Below, one piece after another: positions 6,525-51,105 of a stretch of 64,000 nt of DNA. The notes beneath the pieces are model-generated. The model searched no databases. It saw only the letters and a program-made list of their open reading frames with translations, and was not told the origin of the DNA. This DNA comes from Hyphomicrobiales bacterium (GTDB lineage: Bacteria > Pseudomonadota > Alphaproteobacteria > Rhizobiales > OSC116), in assembly GCA_002401855.1 (NCBI GenBank), contig NVUH01000004.1:1-64000 (forward strand), in the 5' to 3' direction. Within the stretch, counting starts at the first letter, position 1; every line of letters starts with the position of its first letter. A program made the translations under genes and the position numbers.

Positions 6525-6730
6525 TATATTACGCCTAATCAAACGTTAGATCTATTCCCCCATATTATCCGCATGTATAATCTGCCTTTTATCAATTATA
6601 TTCAAGTCACTATCAATTCTATCATTAAGAAGAAATGAATACGAATGCTTGCTTTGTAACTAATTTTCTTGACAGTTTTGAGCTTAAACCGCATAAAACT
6701 TTATATTCACTGAACAATTCGAGGTTCGAC

Positions 6731-8110
6731 ATGAAACTTAATTTTATTTTAGCGGCCGATAGTTATAAAACTTCACATTATAAACAATATCCACCTGATA
6801 CTGAAATCGTCTCAAGTTATATAGAATCCAGGGGGGGCAATCATCCTAAAGTGTTATTTTTTGGCCTGCAAATGTATGTTGAGGAATATTTAACCAACCC
6901 GATTACTCAAGCTGATATTGATGAGGCGGATGACATTATCACCGCGCATGGTCTGCCGTTTAATCGTGAAGGTTGGCAATATATATTGGATGAGCATGAT
7001 GGCTATTTGCCGCTCGAAATTCAGGCGCTTAAAGAAGGCTCATTTTTTCCATTCCGCAATGTGATGGTGCAGGTTAAAAATACTGATCCTAAATGCTTTT
7101 GGCTGACCAGCTATATTGAGACATCCCTACTGCGCGCCATTTGGTACCCAACCACAGTGGCCACCCGCAGCCATTACATGTATCAGGACATCAAAAAATA
7201 CCTAGAGCTCACCGCCGACAATTTAGATGGATTACCGTTTAAATTACACGATTTTGGCGCGCGTGGTGCTAGCTCGCTAGAATCGGCAGCGATTGGTGGC
7301 TTGGCACATTTGGTCAACTTTTCGGGCAGTGACACCATGGCTAGCCTGGTCTATGGCCGTAAATATTATGACATTGACATGGCGGGGTTTTCTATTCCTG
7401 CGGCTGAGCATAGCACCATCACCTCGTGGGGGCGCGGGGCCGAAAAAGAAGCTTATGAGAATATGATTGACCAATTTGCCAAAGATGGCGCTGCGGTGGC
7501 GGTGGTTAGCGATAGCTATAATCTGTGGCATGCGCTTGACCAAATTTGGGGTGAAGAGCTTAAAGATAAAGTCATTAAAAGTGGCGGCACCATTGTCATC
7601 CGCCCCGATAGTGGTGACCCGATTGAGATTGTGACCGAAACCATTGTGAAGTTGATGGAAAAATTTGGCCATAGTGTCAACAAAAAAGGCTATAAATTAC
7701 TGCCCGATTATATACGGGTGATTCAGGGCGATGGCGTGTCAGCTGAGGTCATCACGCTGATATTAGAGCGCTTGATGCAATTGGGCATCAGCACCGATAA
7801 TTTGGCGTTTGGCATGGGGGCAGAATTGCTGCAAAAAGTTGATCGCGATAGTTTTCAATTTGCCATGAAAGTCTCTGCCGCCAAAATTGAAGGCGTGTGG
7901 TATGATATTTACAAAGACCCGATTACTGACCATCATAAACAATCCAAACGCGGGCGGTTTGCAGTGATAAAATCGGGCAAGAGCTGTTTGACGATTAGTG
8001 AAAAAAGCTTGGGCGACAAGAAAAACTTACTTGAAACGGTTTATCTAAATGGTAAAATCATGCGCCGCCAAAGCTTTGCTGAGATTCGCAAATTAGCATT
8101 GAGCGAATGA
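6731..8110 (+). CDS. nadV: Nicotinamide phosphoribosyltransferase (NAMPT/NadV)
   Basis: The 459-residue product aligns by eye with human NAMPT and bacterial NadV along its length: ADSYKTSHYKQYPPDTE near the start, HDFGARGASSLESAAIGG, IPAAEHSTITSWG, IRPDSGDP (phosphate binding), GYKLLPDYIRVIQGDGV, AFGMGAELLQK and KDPITDHHKQSKRGR. The enzyme makes nicotinamide mononucleotide from nicotinamide and PRPP in the two-step NAD salvage route. The start at 6731 is chosen because homology begins there and CGAGG precedes it; a longer frame begins at 6635. It overlaps the HAD phosphatase gene by 4 bases. No NMN adenylyltransferase is adjacent. Confidence 0.93.
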   Translation: MKLNFILAADSYKTSHYKQYPPDTEIVSSYIESRGGNHPKVLFFGLQMYVEEYLTNPITQADIDEADDIITAHGLPFNREGWQYILDEHDGYLPLEIQALKEGSFFPFRNVMVQVKNTDPKCFWLTSYIETSLLRAIWYPTTVATRSHYMYQDIKKYLELTADNLDGLPFKLHDFGARGASSLESAAIGGLAHLVNFSGSDTMASLVYGRKYYDIDMAGFSIPAAEHSTITSWGRGAEKEAYENMIDQFAKDGAAVAVVSDSYNLWHALDQIWGEELKDKVIKSGGTIVIRPDSGDPIEIVTETIVKLMEKFGHSVNKKGYKLLPDYIRVIQGDGVSAEVITLILERLMQLGISTDNLAFGMGAELLQKVDRDSFQFAMKVSAAKIEGVWYDIYKDPITDHHKQSKRGRFAVIKSGKSCLTISEKSLGDKKNLLETVYLNGKIMRRQSFAEIRKLALSE

Positions 8111-8748
8111 ATATGAGTGAGATTAAACTCATCTCGTTTGATTTTGATTTGACATTGACCAAGCATGAAAGTGCGATGGTGCATTTTTCGCATCAGCATA
8201 ATGTTGTCGATCAGGTTAAACAGCTTGAGCGTGAATTTATTGCTGGAAGGATCACCACCCATCAATTCGCCGATGCCAGTGCGGTGTTTTTTAAAGATCT
8301 ATCTCATGATGACATTGCCGCCAAGATGGATGATTTGGTGCTGATTGATGATTGCTTAGAGGTGATTGAGCATATTAAAAGCACAGGCATTCAGGTCATC
8401 ATCTGCTCGGTTGGTTATCGGGCGTTGATCAAGCCGATTGCCAAAAAACTAAATGTTGAGGTTTTTTCTGGGGTCGATTTGGCGGAACAGAACCAAATCT
8501 ATAGTGGTGAATTGACCGGCTATTTTAGTGAATATAATAAAATTACCTTTGTGCAAAAATATGCACTTGAGAATGATATCGAGCTTGAACAGGTGATGGC
8601 GGTTGGTGACAGCGCCACTGATGTGCCATTGTTTAATGTGGTTGGCAAAGCTGTGGCGTTTAATGCCAATGAGCTGGCCAAAAAACACGCGCATCATATT
8701 GTCGATGGGCAAAGCCTCAAATGTTTATTGCCATTTATTGGTTTGTGA
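8107..8748 (+). CDS. HAD-superfamily phosphatase, SerB-like
   Basis: The 213-residue protein has HAD motif I DFDLTLT (nucleophile and acid Asp of DxDxT), motif II ICSVGYR (Ser), a lysine in EYNKITFV as motif III and motif IV VMAVGDSATDVPLF. The helical cap region between residues 20 and 90 resembles phosphoserine-phosphatase-type enzymes. Its ATG overlaps the nadV stop (ATGA), which implies coexpression. A role in nucleotide or NAD salvage, for example on NMN or a phosphorylated intermediate, is an inference from context. A genuine phosphoserine phosphatase cannot be excluded. A second ATG lies two codons in. Confidence 0.8.
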   Translation: MNMSEIKLISFDFDLTLTKHESAMVHFSHQHNVVDQVKQLEREFIAGRITTHQFADASAVFFKDLSHDDIAAKMDDLVLIDDCLEVIEHIKSTGIQVIICSVGYRALIKPIAKKLNVEVFSGVDLAEQNQIYSGELTGYFSEYNKITFVQKYALENDIELEQVMAVGDSATDVPLFNVVGKAVAFNANELAKKHAHHIVDGQSLKCLLPFIGL

Positions 8749-8750
8749 TG

Positions 8751-9000
8751 TCATATTTGCCCAGTCAATCGGCTGCGCTCACTCTTTATCGCGCTGATGA
8801 TGAAATCTGAAAACACCCGAATGCGCATATTGGTGCGCACATCTTTATGAGTTAGCAACCATAATTCAAACTTTGGGTCGGGCTTAGGTTCGGAGAGCCT
8901 TGTTAAGCTCGGCTCCCCCGTGCCCAAAAAGCATGGCAATATGCTGATGCCCATGCCAGCTTTGCAGGCTTCGAGCTGCACCAACAGGTTCACAATCTGA
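8751..9000 (-). pseudogene. C-terminal remnant of a LysR-family regulator
   Basis: About 80 residues ending at a TGA at 8751 match the last part of a LysR substrate-binding domain: LLVQLEACKAGMGISILPCF, then a proline-rich strand and FELWLLTHKDVRTNMRIRVF before the terminal helix. The HTH and most of the effector domain are absent, and homology stops near 8996, where unrelated sequence on the other strand begins. The gene is 5'-truncated and cannot encode a regulator. The ATG at 9026 available to this frame is fortuitous. Confidence 0.75.
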
Positions 9001-9173
9001 CCCTTTATGGCGATATTGAACCACAATTGGTCAATGTTTGGTCTGTTAGCAATCCTGAAAATACGTTTAAAAACATTTTTTCTGATGATGCTTATTTACA
9101 GCATGTGCCATTGCGCAATGCGACATTTGATATGAAACGCTCGCATATGTTTATGTTGAAAGCCGCTGAATGA
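8991..9173 (+). pseudogene. C-terminal remnant of an unidentified plus-strand gene
   Basis: A plus-strand frame ending with TGA at 9171-9173 reads as convincing protein from about 8991: NLTLYGDIEPQLVNVWSV, then NPENTFKNIFSDDAYLQHV and DMKRSHMFMLKAAE. There is no start codon or ribosome site, and the frame upstream overlaps the LysR remnant. It looks like the 3' end of a gene whose remainder was deleted when it was joined to the LysR fragment. The family was not recognised. Confidence 0.45.
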
Positions 9174-9213: not shown

Positions 9214-10527
9214 TTAACCTCGTGCCAATTGCTTGGTTATGGATTGCTGCATCATCGCCAAAGGCGCAAAAAACGCCAATATACCGGCGATGATGAGCGC
9301 CATTAGCATCATCCAAATTTCGGCCGCTGAGAGGCTGGTGACAATGCTGATATTCACCCGACTTTGGATGTAATTATTGATGAAAAATGACGTGCCATAA
9401 GCCAGCAATAGGCCGCTTAAAATGCCAACCACCACAATGCTCATAATATAACCCCAAATTGCCAAATAAATATACAATCGCGGCGCACCCAAAGCCCGCA
9501 AAATGGCAAATTGGCGGCCAAATAATTGAAACATAATCGATATGCCAATTAAGATGGATATGATGACCAAAGCCTCGACAATATAACCCATTAAAGTCAA
9601 TATCTGTCTGGCATCACCCATTAACATATAAAATTCGGCCATAATCTCAGCTGGGAAAAAAGCGGTGGTTTGATGCTCGTCATATTCACTGCGCAGGCTG
9701 TAAGCAGCGGCTATGCTTTTGGGTTTTAGCACCATCACAGAGGCTTCGCTTAAATATTCATTGTCAAATGGCAGGCCAATATTTTCTTCATTGGCGTCAC
9801 TATGACCATTGGCAAGACCGTGTATTTCCCACATCATTTCTATGGGGATGATGATGGCATTGTCCCACGCGGTGGCGGTGGGTTGCATGCGCCCGACAAT
9901 GGTTAGCTCGCTGCCAATATGTTGATGATTGTGCCCTACTTCATCTTCATCGTGATGTTCATCCTCATCGTGATGCTCATCCTCATCGTGATGCTCATCC
10001 TCGTCATGATGCTCATCCTCGTCATGATGCTCATCTTCTGGCATCGCTTCACCATGGGTTGGGGTGATCACATCCCCGATTTTTAGCTTCACATTGGCAC
10101 CAATCACTGCATGTTCGTGGGTGGTAAAAACCTCGCCCTCCATCAATTTGTCTTTTGATAGGTGCCAGATAAACGGCGCAATGGTGCCGATGATTGGCGA
10201 TGATTTATAACTATCGCCAAACGCGATGGGGGCGGCAAAATCTAAGCCATCCTCGGCTAAAATATTGATCATTTGTTCGGTTGGGATGAGATTCAGCGAT
10301 TTAGATTGCAAAAATGCGGTGGCTAATAATAAGTCGGCTTTACTGCCACTGGCACCGATGATGACATCAAATTGATTGGTCACCGCCGCACTGCTTTGGC
10401 GCATTAATCTTTCTTGTATCGATATAATGATGCTAAATGCGGCGGCCACCGCAATCAAGATAACAAAGGCTAAAGAGATATATTTATACCGCCTAAAACT
10501 GGCTTTAATCAATAAAGAAGGGTTCAT
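9214..10527 (-). CDS. FtsX/MacB-like ABC transporter permease with acidic-His repeat
   Basis: The 437-residue protein has an N-terminal membrane helix (ISLAFVILIAVAAAFSIII), a large extracytoplasmic domain and three C-terminal helices (about residues 310-335, 352-378 and 403-425). This is the topology of the MacB/LolC/FtsX permease family. In the extracytoplasmic domain, after residue 160, a six-residue unit EHHDED is repeated about five times and followed by GHNHQH. Such runs typically bind zinc or similar metals. Its ATG follows the ATPase stop by one base. With the ATPase it could extrude or rearrange a periplasmic substrate. Metal linkage is an inference from the repeat and neighbours. 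Confidence 0.88.
   Translation of the reverse strand: MNPSLLIKASFRRYKYISLAFVILIAVAAAFSIIISIQERLMRQSSAAVTNQFDVIIGASGSKADLLLATAFLQSKSLNLIPTEQMINILAEDGLDFAAPIAFGDSYKSSPIIGTIAPFIWHLSKDKLMEGEVFTTHEHAVIGANVKLKIGDVITPTHGEAMPEDEHHDEDEHHDEDEHHDEDEHHDEDEHHDEDEVGHNHQHIGSELTIVGRMQPTATAWDNAIIIPIEMMWEIHGLANGHSDANEENIGLPFDNEYLSEASVMVLKPKSIAAAYSLRSEYDEHQTTAFFPAEIMAEFYMLMGDARQILTLMGYIVEALVIISILIGISIMFQLFGRQFAILRALGAPRLYIYLAIWGYIMSIVVVGILSGLLLAYGTSFFINNYIQSRVNISIVTSLSAAEIWMMLMALIIAGILAFFAPLAMMQQSITKQLARG
9941..10038 (-). repeat. 18-bp in-frame tandem repeat encoding EHHDED
   Basis: About five near-identical 18-bp units (plus-strand reading based on GATGCTCATCCTCATCGT) lie inside the permease gene. Copies differ by single silent changes (CTCATCGT versus CTCGTCAT). 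In-frame units like this can expand or contract by slippage without breaking the protein. Confidence 0.85.
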
Positions 10528-10528
10528 A

Positions 10529-11236
10529 TTAAGCTGCGCCTACATTGGGGATGGTGGGTAGAGTGTTTTTTATTATTTTGCCATGTTCTAACAGCAATTT
10601 ATTGTCAATCTGTTCCATAACCGCGGGGTCATGGCTGACGATGATCAGGGTTTTATCGCCCTCTGCACTTATCTTGCGTAAATGCTCCAATATATTACGG
10701 GCATTGGCCTCATCTAAACTGGCAGTGGGTTCATCAGCCAAAATAATCGGTGCGTCTTTAATCAGCGCCCGTGCCAATGCGATGCGTTGCTTTTCGCCAC
10801 GTGACATATGGGCAATGGTGCTGTTATGAATGGAGATGGAGAATTCATCAGCCAATTTTTCGGCTTTATAAATCATATCTTTAGGGCAGAAAAAACTATC
10901 AAAACCTGTTGGTACCAAAATATTATCCAATACTGACAATTCATCAAGCAATTGAAAATTTTGAAATATCATGCCCAAATTTTGGCTACGCCATTTATCC
11001 CGTTCAACCGAAGCCAAATTATATAGGTTGCTTCTGTCCCAGCTTACTTTGCCATTCAGCTTTAGAAACAAGCCTGCAATGGCATAAAGAAAAGTGGTTT
11101 TGCCCGAGCCAGATGCGCCAGAAATAACCAATTCACGTTCACCTTCGAGATTAAAATACGGGACGTCTAAAATTGTTTGGCCGTTAATGCCAAATGTATT
11201 GATTTTTAAATTTTGAATTTCAAGTGACTTACTCAT
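10529..11236 (-). CDS. LolD/MacB-like ABC transporter ATP-binding protein
   Basis: The roughly 235-residue ATPase has Walker A GASGSGKT, a Q-loop at IFQNFQLLDELSV, a signature of the variant form MSRGEKQR (usual LSGGE), Walker B IILADEPTASLDE and the switch histidine IIVSHD. Length and motifs match the LolD/MacB family that pairs with FtsX-like permeases. Two ATGs are close; GGAG lies six bases before the one at 11236 and directly abuts the one at 11242, so the inner start is chosen. It is encoded between the secreted protein gene (24-bp gap) and the permease gene (1-bp gap). Confidence 0.9.
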   Translation of the reverse strand: MSKSLEIQNLKINTFGINGQTILDVPYFNLEGERELVISGASGSGKTTFLYAIAGLFLKLNGKVSWDRSNLYNLASVERDKWRSQNLGMIFQNFQLLDELSVLDNILVPTGFDSFFCPKDMIYKAEKLADEFSISIHNSTIAHMSRGEKQRIALARALIKDAPIILADEPTASLDEANARNILEHLRKISAEGDKTLIIVSHDPAVMEQIDNKLLLEHGKIIKNTLPTIPNVGAA

Positions 11237-11260
11237 TACCATCTCCTATATATCTTGATT

Positions 11261-11704
11261 TTAATTCATATCGTAATGCGCATCTAATATGCGCACACGG
11301 CTCACAAAGCCGGTTTCTTGGTGGCTTTGTGTGCCTAAATCCAGCACGCCAGAAACCACAATTCTGCGGTTATAGGCGATGATTCTAAACGGATGATCGC
11401 CGGTTACAAATATAAGATCATCAGGCCAATCGGCCTCTGATTCACAAAATGGACAGACCGAAAGTGGCGTTTTAGTCAGTACAAAAAAATCACTCTCAAC
11501 CTTAAGCGGCGGCGCCATATAGCCATAGAAACGCACTTGTAGGCCATTGAGCTGCTTGGCTTTGTCGCTAAATTGCATATGTTGTTTATATAATTCGGCA
11601 AAATAAAGTGGTTTGTCTTGGGCTTGCGCTGCTGCGCTGCTGTATGCCAGCAATAACAATAACAAGGTGGAGATGACCACTTTGTGATAGAATATTTTCA
11701 CCAT
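11261..11704 (-). CDS. Secreted DUF3299/COG3495-like protein
   Basis: The product of about 147 residues starts with a signal peptide (ISTLLLLLLAYSSAAAQAQ) and has a small beta-rich domain with LNGLQVRFYGYMAPPLKV and LSVCPFCESEADWPDD. This arrangement recalls DUF3299 (COG3495) proteins, whose genes are often found beside LolD-FtsX pairs, including in zinc-regulated operons such as zrg of Vibrio cholerae. The CPFC pair could bind metal or form a disulfide. As in the ATPase gene, GGAG is followed by two ATGs and the inner one (11704) has the better spacing. It is first in the operon. Confidence 0.65.
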   Translation of the reverse strand: MVKIFYHKVVISTLLLLLLAYSSAAAQAQDKPLYFAELYKQHMQFSDKAKQLNGLQVRFYGYMAPPLKVESDFFVLTKTPLSVCPFCESEADWPDDLIFVTGDHPFRIIAYNRRIVVSGVLDLGTQSHQETGFVSRVRILDAHYDMN

Positions 11705-11747
11705 AATCATCTCCCTTCAGTCTTTAATGTTTTGGTACTTAAAAACA

Positions 11748-11777
11748 AAATGAGCGGCTCTTACTTGCAGCTCATTT
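11748..11777 (-). terminator. Terminator after alkaline phosphatase
   Basis: AAATGAGC and GCTCATTT form an 8-bp perfect stem. On the minus strand the second arm is followed by TTGTTTTT. It lies about 10 bp past the stop of the alkaline phosphatase gene and separates it from the ABC operon. Confidence 0.6.
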
Positions 11778-11786
11778 CGGTTTGGG

Positions 11787-13283
11787 TTATTTGTCGCTCA
11801 TGGCTGTTGCATGATCGATCACGTGGTAGATAAAGTTTTGCTCAATTGTGCCATTTAACAAATGTGACCAAGGACCAGCCGCATAAACTGCCACGTCAGA
11901 ACCAGAATGGGTTTCTGAACTCAATGGAATTAACGCCTGTTGGATGTAATCAAGATGTGTTGTATCGACATTGGTTAAGTCTTCACGCGTTGCCACTGTG
12001 CCATCTTCATTAAACACGCCACCAGGGCCATTTGTGTAATTAAGCACTGTGTAAGGCTTGCCATCTTTTGCAAGGTTAGGTGTGCCATCTTTGCCCAATG
12101 ATAGGCCTAAAATTGGGTTACCTAATTTTGCGTAGCCAGACAATGTGAGCGTATGCGCATGGTCAGCCGTTACGATGACCAATGTGTCTGACAGATCTAC
12201 TTTTGCCAATGCCGCTGCTACAGCACGATTAAAGGCAGCGCCATCTTCAAGCGCACGGGCGGCATTGCCAGCATGATGAGCATGGTCTACACGGCCAGAT
12301 TCGATGGCGAGGAAATAACCATTTTCATTTTGTGAAAGCAAGTCAATGGCTTTGGTGGTCATTTCGGCCAATGAAGGTTCACCGCCTTTGTCGTTGGCGC
12401 GGTCAGCTTCATATTCCATATGTGATGAGTTGAACAAGCCAAGCACTTTAGGGGTTGAAGCTAAGTCAATTTTATCAAAACCTGCTTGGTTCCAAACATA
12501 TTGATGATTGTTAGATTTGCTTGTCCATTCAGCCGTTAGATCTCGACCATCTGTACGTTTGCCGTTTTTGCCTTCACCATCTACAGTTTGTTTGGTGATA
12601 AAGTGACGGCGGCCACCACCAAATACAACGTCGATGCCATCACCATGAGCAAAGCTTAAAAGTTGTGAGGCAATGTCTTCGCAGCCTTCTGCAACACTGC
12701 TGTCATCTTCCCAGTTACGGTCAGCACTATGGGCATATACGGCAGCTGGTGTGGCGTGAGTGATGCGGGCGGTTGATACGATGCCAGTTGACATGCCAGC
12801 GTCTTCTGCCAATTCGGCAAATGTGGTGACGGCGGCGCCAAGGGCAGCTTTACAATCGCCGCGCCCTGCACTGTCATCAATGCTCAATACGCCTTGTTTG
12901 GTTTTCACACCTGTGACAATGGCAGACATTGTGCCCGCACTGTCAGGGGTTTGGGCATCGGTATTATACGTTTTCACCAAAGCTAAGTTGGGCAAAGCTT
13001 CGTAGCTCAGAACATTATCTTCGCCGCTCATGCCTTTTTTCTGGCCGTCATAAATACGAAGGGCAGCATTGGAGTTTACGCCATTGCCATCGGCCACAAA
13101 CACAATTACGTTTTTGGCTTGGTTGGTATTTACCTGTTGGGCTAATTTTTGCTGCAAGGTTTTTTGGCCATTTACATACCAAATATCCTGAGTTTTATCT
13201 GCGGCCACACCTGTATAAGTGGTGCTGGCCAATAAAGCTGATGTAAGGCCAATAATTAGGCCTAAGTTGCGAAATTTTTTCAT
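11787..13283 (-). CDS. phoA: Alkaline phosphatase, PhoA family
   Basis: The 498-residue precursor has a Sec signal peptide (LIIGLTSALLASTTYTGVA). Recognisable family parts are VIVFVADGNGV (first metal Asp), TPDSAGTMSAIVTGVKT (Ser nucleophile in DSA), ITHATPAAVYAH, FGGGRRHF, ESGRVDHAHHAGN (Asp/His zinc ligands), IVTADHAHTLT (Asp-His) and ETHSGSDVAVYAAGP (His ligand). It releases phosphate from organic esters in the periplasm. The gene stands alone between a terminator and a Pho box, consistent with phosphate-starvation control. Confidence 0.93.
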   Translation of the reverse strand: MKKFRNLGLIIGLTSALLASTTYTGVAADKTQDIWYVNGQKTLQQKLAQQVNTNQAKNVIVFVADGNGVNSNAALRIYDGQKKGMSGEDNVLSYEALPNLALVKTYNTDAQTPDSAGTMSAIVTGVKTKQGVLSIDDSAGRGDCKAALGAAVTTFAELAEDAGMSTGIVSTARITHATPAAVYAHSADRNWEDDSSVAEGCEDIASQLLSFAHGDGIDVVFGGGRRHFITKQTVDGEGKNGKRTDGRDLTAEWTSKSNNHQYVWNQAGFDKIDLASTPKVLGLFNSSHMEYEADRANDKGGEPSLAEMTTKAIDLLSQNENGYFLAIESGRVDHAHHAGNAARALEDGAAFNRAVAAALAKVDLSDTLVIVTADHAHTLTLSGYAKLGNPILGLSLGKDGTPNLAKDGKPYTVLNYTNGPGGVFNEDGTVATREDLTNVDTTHLDYIQQALIPLSSETHSGSDVAVYAAGPWSHLLNGTIEQNFIYHVIDHATAMSDK

Positions 13284-13344: not shown

Positions 13345-13373
13345 ATGACAGGTAGATGATGGTTTTGTGACAG
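13345..13373 (-). promoter_or_regulatory. PhoB box (three 11-bp repeats) upstream of phoA
   Basis: On the minus strand, CTGTCAC, CCATCAT and CTGTCAT start at exactly 11-bp intervals (plus-strand positions 13367-13373, 13356-13362 and 13345-13351). The PhoB consensus half-site is CTGTCAT with an 11-bp period; the outer two match 6-7 of 7 positions and the middle one 5 of 7. The box lies about 60 bp upstream of the phoA ATG, with a CTTATG -10-like element a few bases downstream. Confidence 0.75.
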
Positions 13374-49595: not shown

Positions 49596-51105
49596 TATTG
49601 AGGTGTTTTTCAATATGAAGAGATAGGTTATCTAGTGCGTTTTCAATGGTTTGGTTGTAATTTTGATCGGTTTTATTGGCACCTAGATCGTTTAAAAAAT
49701 CTTCGCGGAAATCGTCGTTGGTGAAAATTCCGTGTAGATATGAACCCATTACATTGCCACTGGGTGATTTTGCGCCGAAATTCTTGTTAGGCTTTGTAAT
49801 CATTGGATTTTTTAAATCATTACCTGTGGTTTCGCCTAAATGAATTTCGTAGGCAGAAAAATTGTCAAATTCGACTAGATTGGTGGATTTATCACCTGCG
49901 ATTTCGGTTTCTATATCGAGTAGACCAAGGGCTTTGATGCTTTTGCTGCTGCCTTCTAACATATTGGGATCGTTTATTATTTTTCCTAGCATTTGGAAGC
50001 CGCCACAAATTCCTAGTAATTTTCCGCCGCGTCTGACGTGGGATTTTATGTCAATGTCCCAGCCTTGTTGGTAGAGATATTCTAGATCGGCAATGGTTGA
50101 TTTGCTGCCTGGAATGATGATGAGGTCAGCCTCTGGCAGGACGCCTGAATTGACCAAATTTAGCTCTACATTTTGATGTTGAGATAGTGGATCTAGGTCA
50201 TCAAAATTGGCAATATGGGGCATTTTAAGGGCTAAAATACGGGTTTTTTGGGTGTTTTTTGGGTGTTTTTTGCTGTTTTTTGTGCTTTTTTGGGGTGTTT
50301 TTTGGGGTTTTTCGAGCGCAACGCTGTCTTCGGCGGGGAGCAAATGGGCGTCTGGGAAGTGCGGTAGTATGCCGAGATTTTTCCAGCCTGTGCGGTTTTC
50401 AATTTCTATGATCGCGTCATCGAACAAAGAAATATCGCCACGGAATTTATTGATGATGAAACCTTTAATGCGGTTTCGATCTGCCTGCGAAATGACTTCG
50501 TATGTGCCGACAATTGAGGCGATGACGCCGCCACGGTCTATATCACCGATCAGCACCACGGGGATATTTATTTGTTCGGCAAAGCCCATATTGGCAATGT
50601 CATTTTTGCGTAAATTGGTTTCAGCGGGGCTGCCTGCGCCTTCGACCAAAATCATTTGATGTTGGTTTTTTAGGCTTTCATATGACTTTAAAATGACCTC
50701 CAGAAATTCAGGTTTATATTGATAATATTGTCGCGCTTTGAGGCTTTTGAATTTTTTGCCATTGATGATGACTTGGCTGCCGGTCTCATTTTCGGGTTTG
50801 AGCAATATGGGGTTCATATTTGTGGCGGGGGCGATTTTGGCGGCTTTGGCTTGCAGCCATTGAGCGCGGCCTATTTCGCCCATATTTTTTGTGATGTTTT
50901 GGGCTTCTAAATCAAAGATATTTGCAACCGCGGCGTTGTTGGACATATTTTGTGATTTGAACGGTGCAACATTGATGCCTTTATTGGCGAAAAGGCGGCA
51001 TAAGCCCGCCACAATTAAGGATTTACCGACATCAGAGCCTGTACCCATAAACATAATTTGTTGGGCGGCTTTGGTTGAAATGTTTGATTGCAGATTTTTT
51101 GTCAT
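49561..51105 (-). CDS. cobQ: Cobyric acid synthase CobQ/CbiP
   Basis: The 514-residue protein has QIMFMGTGSDVGKSLIVAGL, KSQNMSNNAAV, ILVEGAGSPAETNLRKNDIA and the amidotransferase part GICGGFQMLGKII with LHGIFTNDDFREDF. It amidates four side chains to give cobyric acid. Residues about 267-292, between the two domains, are an unusual Lys/Thr/Gln/Pro-rich insert (KPQKTPQKSTKNSKK). It is divergent from the RND exporter. Confidence 0.94.
   Translation of the reverse strand: MTKNLQSNISTKAAQQIMFMGTGSDVGKSLIVAGLCRLFANKGINVAPFKSQNMSNNAAVANIFDLEAQNITKNMGEIGRAQWLQAKAAKIAPATNMNPILLKPENETGSQVIINGKKFKSLKARQYYQYKPEFLEVILKSYESLKNQHQMILVEGAGSPAETNLRKNDIANMGFAEQINIPVVLIGDIDRGGVIASIVGTYEVISQADRNRIKGFIINKFRGDISLFDDAIIEIENRTGWKNLGILPHFPDAHLLPAEDSVALEKPQKTPQKSTKNSKKHPKNTQKTRILALKMPHIANFDDLDPLSQHQNVELNLVNSGVLPEADLIIIPGSKSTIADLEYLYQQGWDIDIKSHVRRGGKLLGICGGFQMLGKIINDPNMLEGSSKSIKALGLLDIETEIAGDKSTNLVEFDNFSAYEIHLGETTGNDLKNPMITKPNKNFGAKSPSGNVMGSYLHGIFTNDDFREDFLNDLGANKTDQNYNQTIENALDNLSLHIEKHLNIKTINAMSKGQ
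50241..50313. repeat. T/G-rich low-complexity tract inside cobQ
   Basis: On the plus strand the tract consists of runs of five to six T separated by short G-rich pieces (GGGTG, GCTG, GTGC, GGGGTG). It encodes the basic linker of CobQ. Homopolymer runs of this kind are prone to slippage. Confidence 0.75.

Follow-up and report, generated by a model that had tools for sequence, protein, structure and literature searches.

This locus raises the question of what a small secreted protein with a CPFC motif, an ABC ATPase and an FtsX-type permease do together in the bacterial envelope. The genes for all three lie on the minus strand of the window, a stretch of 64,000 nucleotides from a Hyphomicrobiales bacterium, and all three were found to be real (Table 1). 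The original prediction had described them as an operon. The three genes were borne out, but the unit had been cut short, its leading gene having been missed. The gene for the secreted alkaline phosphatase PhoA precedes that of the CPFC protein on the same strand with a gap of 76 bp, and the CPFC, ATPase and permease genes are the back half of an operon led by phoA. The ATG at 11704, which the original prediction used, gives the CPFC gene a better Shine-Dalgarno spacing than the opening of its ORF at 11710, and the ribosome-binding-site spacing of the ATPase gene is better at 11236 than at 11242. Hydropathy analysis of the permease indicates four TM helices and a large extracytoplasmic domain. 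Our preferred reading, to which we assign a probability of roughly 0.58, is that the operon is a module, induced by PhoB, that provides PhoA with zinc or loads the metal into it by means of a LolE/MacB-type ABC machine. The observations on which this metallation reading is built are the linkage to phoA, co-occurrence, a promoter motif, a hairpin, predicted folds and conserved zinc ligands.

Table 1. Positions of the operon and of nearby features in the window
Feature	Position	Strand	Description
Remnant	9007-9173	+	C-terminus of a 144-aa secreted protein; outside the operon
FtsX-type permease gene	9214-10527 (437 aa)	-	PF02687, E 9e-6
Five tandem EDEHHD units	9941-10035/10038	-	18-nt period, 94% matches, TRF score 148
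ABC ATPase gene, LolD/MacB-like	ORF 10529-11242 (237 aa), probable start 11236	-	PF00005, E 1e-25
CPFC protein gene	ORF 11261-11710 (149 aa), ATG 11704 (147 aa)	-	Secreted, small, OB-like protein
Stem-loop and T run	11741-11778	-	Between phoA and the CPFC gene; -20.9 kcal/mol, z -4.4
phoA	11787-13283	-	498-aa secreted alkaline phosphatase; leads the operon
Pho box CTGTCAC-AAAA-CCATCAT-CTAC-CTGTCAT	13345-13373	-	Three repeats of 11 bp, just upstream of the phoA start
Palindrome TTAACATCTGTTAA	13386-13399	.	Lies upstream of the Pho box, at about the place that a Zur box takes in relatives

Three sets of loci were compared: 52 loci of the order, drawn from 297 genomes, 80 named GTDB loci and 5 annotated plasmid loci; a few genomes belong to more than one set. 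The named GTDB loci were retrieved with patterns of the CPFC motif. As the best 80 of at least 582, they are not a random sample; the 297-genome set is free of this selection bias. The original prediction had proposed a search for the same operon in relatives. It is conserved there and tied to the zinc enzyme gene phoA, which directly precedes the three genes on their strand in 49 of the 52 loci of the order and in all 83 plasmid and GTDB loci that are not cut by a contig edge. One of the three exceptions (L042) is a distant homologue beside a type I phosphodiesterase gene, and the other two are loci of a single genome (G201) whose PhoA sits elsewhere. The phoA-linked set reaches Deinococcus, Thermus, Allomeiothermus, Azospirillum and Paracoccus, and the same gene order was present on plasmids of Deinococcus radiodurans R1 (MP1, DR_RS15680-DR_RS15700), Thermus thermophilus and Allomeiothermus silvanus.

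Presence and absence across the 297 genomes gave a similar picture. All 53 genomes that clearly carry a CPFC gene also have PhoA, and CPFC occurs in none of the 213 genomes that are devoid of PhoA (p = 5e-37; the value assumes independence of the genomes, which does not hold, and leaves out the weak CPFC hits in G008 and G219). Within the same genus, two genomes (G003 and G005) have neither PhoA nor CPFC. A third (G004) carries a PhoA fragment with two stop codons (C88:5363-5587) and no CPFC gene was found in it, which looks like the loss of both in one lineage. The CPFC gene is missing from 31 of the 84 PhoA-bearing genomes; consequently, PhoA does not generally depend on it. To our knowledge, the E. 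coli PhoA obtains its zinc without any such system.

The PhoA of the window matched PF00245 with an E value of 1.2e-119 and aligned to tissue-nonspecific alkaline phosphatase over 465 residues (E 7e-109), the E. coli enzyme being far less similar. It is of the tissue-nonspecific-AP-like type, with residues equivalent to H153 and H328. The ligands of the two zinc ions, the nucleophilic Ser and the catalytic Arg are complete in this protein, as they are in essentially all 131 PhoA proteins of the set. Operon-linked PhoA proteins fall into two subfamilies, with either H/H or D/K as third-site residues, and the zinc ligands are kept in both. Judged from the aligned residues, it is the zinc pair that the two subfamilies using the module have in common. 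PhoA requires two zinc ions, and zinc-phosphorus co-limitation has hence been discussed for marine microbes (PMC5454538).

The AlphaFold model of the permease (pLDDT 87) matched LolE best, and also MacB, YbbP and HrtB. The five-unit repeat that had been noticed in the extracytoplasmic domain was recovered both by TRF and by a listing of the units, which read EDEHHD in this register. It lies between TM1 and TM2, in a region that is disordered in the model (residues 165-203, pLDDT <50). In the permease of the sister genome this loop contains fewer units (EDEHHDEDEDEEHHEDE), so the number of repeats varies between close relatives. The repeat had also been taken to be specific to this permease. 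This did not hold, since His-rich loops recur in relatives, at two positions of the extracytoplasmic domain, and at least 11 changes of the loop state were counted on the permease tree. On this tree the window and its sister belong to a group of four His-rich rows that is well separated from most of the order. The nearest rows include Marinomonas, a gammaproteobacterium, which hints at horizontal transfer of the window permease; the long branches leave us unsure of it.

In about one third of the relatives (40 of 124 loci) a fifth gene adjoins the permease gene; it is absent from the window. All three of its products that were tested scored above the cut-off of PF04314, the family of the PCu(A)C copper chaperones, and the identification of this His-rich protein as ZrgA was rejected on the basis of this Pfam assignment. 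The fifth-gene proteins differ from the copper chaperones in that none of 36 has the copper HxM motif, while 35 of the 36 end in an HxHxGHxH tail. His-rich permease loops were seen in 43 of 84 loci without the PCu(A)C-like gene versus 1 of 40 with it (Fisher 1e-8, raw counts), and 41 of the 124 loci have neither. The loop may thus replace a missing PCu(A)C gene, but the significance of the raw counts is not borne out by independent pairs on the permease tree, which gave no significant support for such a trade-off.

The window had been thought to hold the remnant of a binding-protein gene beside the operon. The remnant turned out to be the C-terminal end of a secreted protein of 144 aa, and it was rejected as a metal-binding candidate. 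The sister genome (L031 6044-6478, NORP194) retains the whole protein, for which Pfam gave no more than a match to DUF1330 below threshold. Compared with the sister, a deletion of ~1.06 kb with its junction at 9006/9007 joins a truncated LysR C-terminus on the minus strand to the remnant on the plus strand (window 8751-9173). Two other features of the window were noted. Positions 6635-8748 hold an ORF that resembles, by eye, a nicotinamide phosphoribosyltransferase and, next to it, a HAD hydrolase, the two overlapping by 4 bases, and a T/G-rich tandem repeat with a unit of 10-11 bp lies at 50241-50312.

The fold of the permease invites another explanation, namely that the machine works mechanically on PhoA in the manner of Lol or FtsEX systems, in release from the inner membrane, folding, placement in the envelope or activation, and that metal is incidental. 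A single exclusive protein client would account for the strict linkage, and LolE is the best fold match. However, a lipobox was found in only 1 of the 131 PhoA proteins, and a lipoprotein PhoA as a Lol-type client was rejected on this count. Metal is indicated, moreover, by the His-rich loops of the permeases and by the PCu(A)C-like protein with its His tail. A role of the CPFC protein as a disulfide catalyst for PhoA is also unlikely, because the mature part of 32 of 51 D/K-type PhoA proteins is free of cysteine, yet the CPFC protein is still kept. We consider a mechanical role with incidental metal quite improbable.

The CPFC motif itself is kept in 137 of 138 loci. Many of the proteins have twin-arginine N-termini, and in annotated public plasmid records they are called hypothetical. 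The original prediction had likened the CPFC protein to DUF3299. The window protein has no Pfam match at E<1, DUF3299 included, and for 34 aligned family members there were zero matches to DUF3299 (PF11736) and no relevant Pfam family that fits. Membership by sequence was thus rejected, and a search of PDB sequences with the profile of the alignment returned nothing. The predicted structure was more informative: the AlphaFold model (pLDDT 89) matched PA4066 (4hsp) with an E value of 1.9e-5 and a TM score of 0.49, the sole match in the PDB at E<0.001. What is left of the likeness is therefore the predicted fold only.

Upstream of phoA, the window has the 11-bp direct repeats by which the Pho regulon is recognized. 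The triple pattern occurs a single time in the whole genome. A Pho-box score of at least 11 of 14 was reached by 42% of 125 phoA upstream regions, compared with 1.6% of segments taken at random from these loci. In a search for PhoB nothing scored above the cut-off of TIGR02154, which only 2 of 14 controls pass, and several OmpR-type regulators are present. A PstS-type phosphate-binding protein (PF12849) was not found in this draft genome, in a search that detected its controls.

A Zur box had been suggested as something to look for upstream of the operon. The genome has a perfect Zur palindrome, TGTTATATTATAACA, between zur and znuA, yet the best site in the phoA promoter of the window scores 8/13. 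Zur control of the window operon was rejected, as there is no box even though the genome's own Zur motif is known. Palindrome TTAACATCTGTTAA of the window does not fit this motif. Some relatives do have a Zur box, and their motif is the one seen at zur-znuA. A palindrome TGTTATANNATAACA at 12/13 or better was found in 11 of 125 phoA upstream regions versus 0 of 570 control segments, in most cases with the Pho box 30-50 bp further downstream. In five loci (L096, L104, L140, L145 and L156) a perfect Zur palindrome lies 29-44 bp upstream of the Pho box in the same promoter. Such an arrangement could reflect two promoters or joint control. Bosea is one of the relatives that carry both kinds of box. 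The partners and regulation first pictured for the operon, those of zinc-regulated sets, were consequently replaced: its partner is alkaline phosphatase, and its promoter carries a Pho box.

The stem-loop between phoA and the CPFC gene is also shared. A hairpin with z<-2 lies at the same position in 86% of 109 loci, compared with 7% of control segments. It is probably either an attenuator or a protector of the mRNA 3′ end. A T run follows it in the window and is variable in relatives; in the window this run suggests partial termination after phoA.

The closest known system is PA4063-PA4066 of Pseudomonas aeruginosa, a Zur-regulated, zinc-responsive operon (PMC11481552, PMC8561739). Both have an ABC ATPase and a MacB-like permease encoded by separate genes and a small periplasmic OB-like protein, PA4066 there and the CPFC protein here, and both are accompanied by a His-rich periplasmic protein, in our case in relatives. 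They differ in that the lead gene here is phoA, with a Pho box and no Zur box in the window, and in that the CPFC family has no match to DUF3299. The His-rich protein of the relatives has the PCu(A)C fold rather than that of PA4063/ZrgA, and the window carries its histidines in the permease. ZrgABCDE of Vibrio likewise combines a permease, an ATPase, a DUF3299-type protein and a His-rich protein (PMC9817125), and its Zur site contains TGTTATATTATAACA, the motif found before phoA in some relatives (PMC9817125). In contrast, the window operon has no DUF2796 or DUF2607 gene and has phoA and a Pho box instead. No ZrgA (DUF2796) was found in the operon; a search of the genome gave no match either, although it also failed to detect its controls.

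These comparisons bear on whether the module is simply an acquisition system for zinc (or cobalt) of the ZrgABCDE type, co-induced because PhoA raises the demand for zinc and without action on PhoA itself. ZrgA helps Vibrio to grow when zinc is limiting (PMC9817125), and both the resemblance of the CPFC fold to PA4066 and the Zur boxes next to the Pho box in a subset of relatives would fit such a system. However, the permease has the fold of mechanotransmission and exporter ABC proteins and not of importers, the window has no Zur box, and the constant linkage is to phoA, with no znu genes seen in the annotated neighbourhoods of relatives. On balance we regard acquisition alone as unlikely.

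The same fold can be read as that of an exporter for a metallophore or another small molecule, as PA4064-PA4065 has been reported to export pyochelin/cobalt (PMC11481552). Besides this published case, the MacB-like fold speaks for export. Against it, the operon of the window contains no biosynthesis, adaptor or TolC genes, and the tie to phoA is strict across very different lineages. We give export very little probability. By predicted permease fold and type of ATPase the module does resemble the type VII ABC proteins MacB, LolCDE and YbbAP; it differs in having one permease gene, a separate ATPase and no MacA/TolC or LolA/LolB partner alongside. The best NCBIfam models for the ATPase all fell below their cut-offs. 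Its scores lay far below the LolD and YbbA cut-offs, with 139 bits against the LolD equivalog (cut-off 307.75), and with a single permease gene there is no LolC/LolE pair as in LolCDE. Nor does the arrangement correspond to MacAB-TolC, since ATPase and permease are separate and no adaptor gene lies beside them.

We believe that a PhoA-metallation module is the best explanation because it accounts for the strict tie to a zinc enzyme, for the recurrence of His-rich elements, for a PCu(A)C protein that seems re-tooled and for promoters with Pho and Zur boxes. Counting against it are the PhoA-bearing genomes that lack CPFC, the loci with neither a His-rich loop nor the PCu(A)C-like gene, the tree-based result on the trade-off between these two, the negative searches for PhoB and a PstS-type protein, and the exporter role reported for PA4064-PA4065. 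The idea of a metal-linked envelope system, put forward in the original prediction, is well supported by this tie, the His-rich elements and the PA4066-like fold. We infer zinc as the metal, PhoA as the client, the order of hand-off, attenuation and control by PhoB. A more specific version, to which we give somewhat less than an even chance, is a dedicated ATP-driven machine for PhoA metallation, placed in one operon with its client under PhoB (in some species with Zur), with the PCu(A)C protein re-tooled from copper to another metal. Under phosphate starvation PhoB would turn on phoA. The hairpin 3′ of phoA would let part of the transcription pass, giving much enzyme and little machine. The ATPase would power the LolE/MacB-type permease and thereby move its periplasmic domain, unlike a classical importer. 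Zinc may be gathered by His-rich parts of the permease (here the EDEHHD repeat) or, in relatives, by the His-tailed PCu(A)C-fold protein. The OB-like CPFC protein could then pass the metal to apo-PhoA through its CxxC pair (C86/C89) or keep PhoA loaded. In cytochrome c maturation, CcmAB and CcmE pair an ABC machine with a periplasmic OB-fold carrier that serves a heme metalloprotein. The comparison is by analogy only, the cargo being heme there and putatively zinc here.

The class that combines a MacB-like ABC system with a PA4066-like partner is already known from Pseudomonas and Vibrio. The PhoA-linked form with a Pho box, a CPFC protein and a PCu(A)C partner is widely conserved and apparently undescribed. 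Among the open-licence papers searched, none was found on alkaline phosphatase PhoA with an operon of an FtsX-like permease, nor on ZrgA or PCuAC combined with alkaline phosphatase.

How secreted bacterial zinc enzymes are supplied with metal in the envelope is largely an open question. A conserved operon that couples PhoA with an ABC machine, and whose promoter holds Pho boxes and in some cases Zur boxes as well, would offer a genetic way into zinc-phosphorus co-limitation. Direct tests are feasible, since the operon occurs in strains that can be cultured, Deinococcus radiodurans R1 and Paracoccus pantotrophus among them. The idea of PhoA as a client may also provide a client-protein model for the unexplained PA4063-PA4066/Zrg class.
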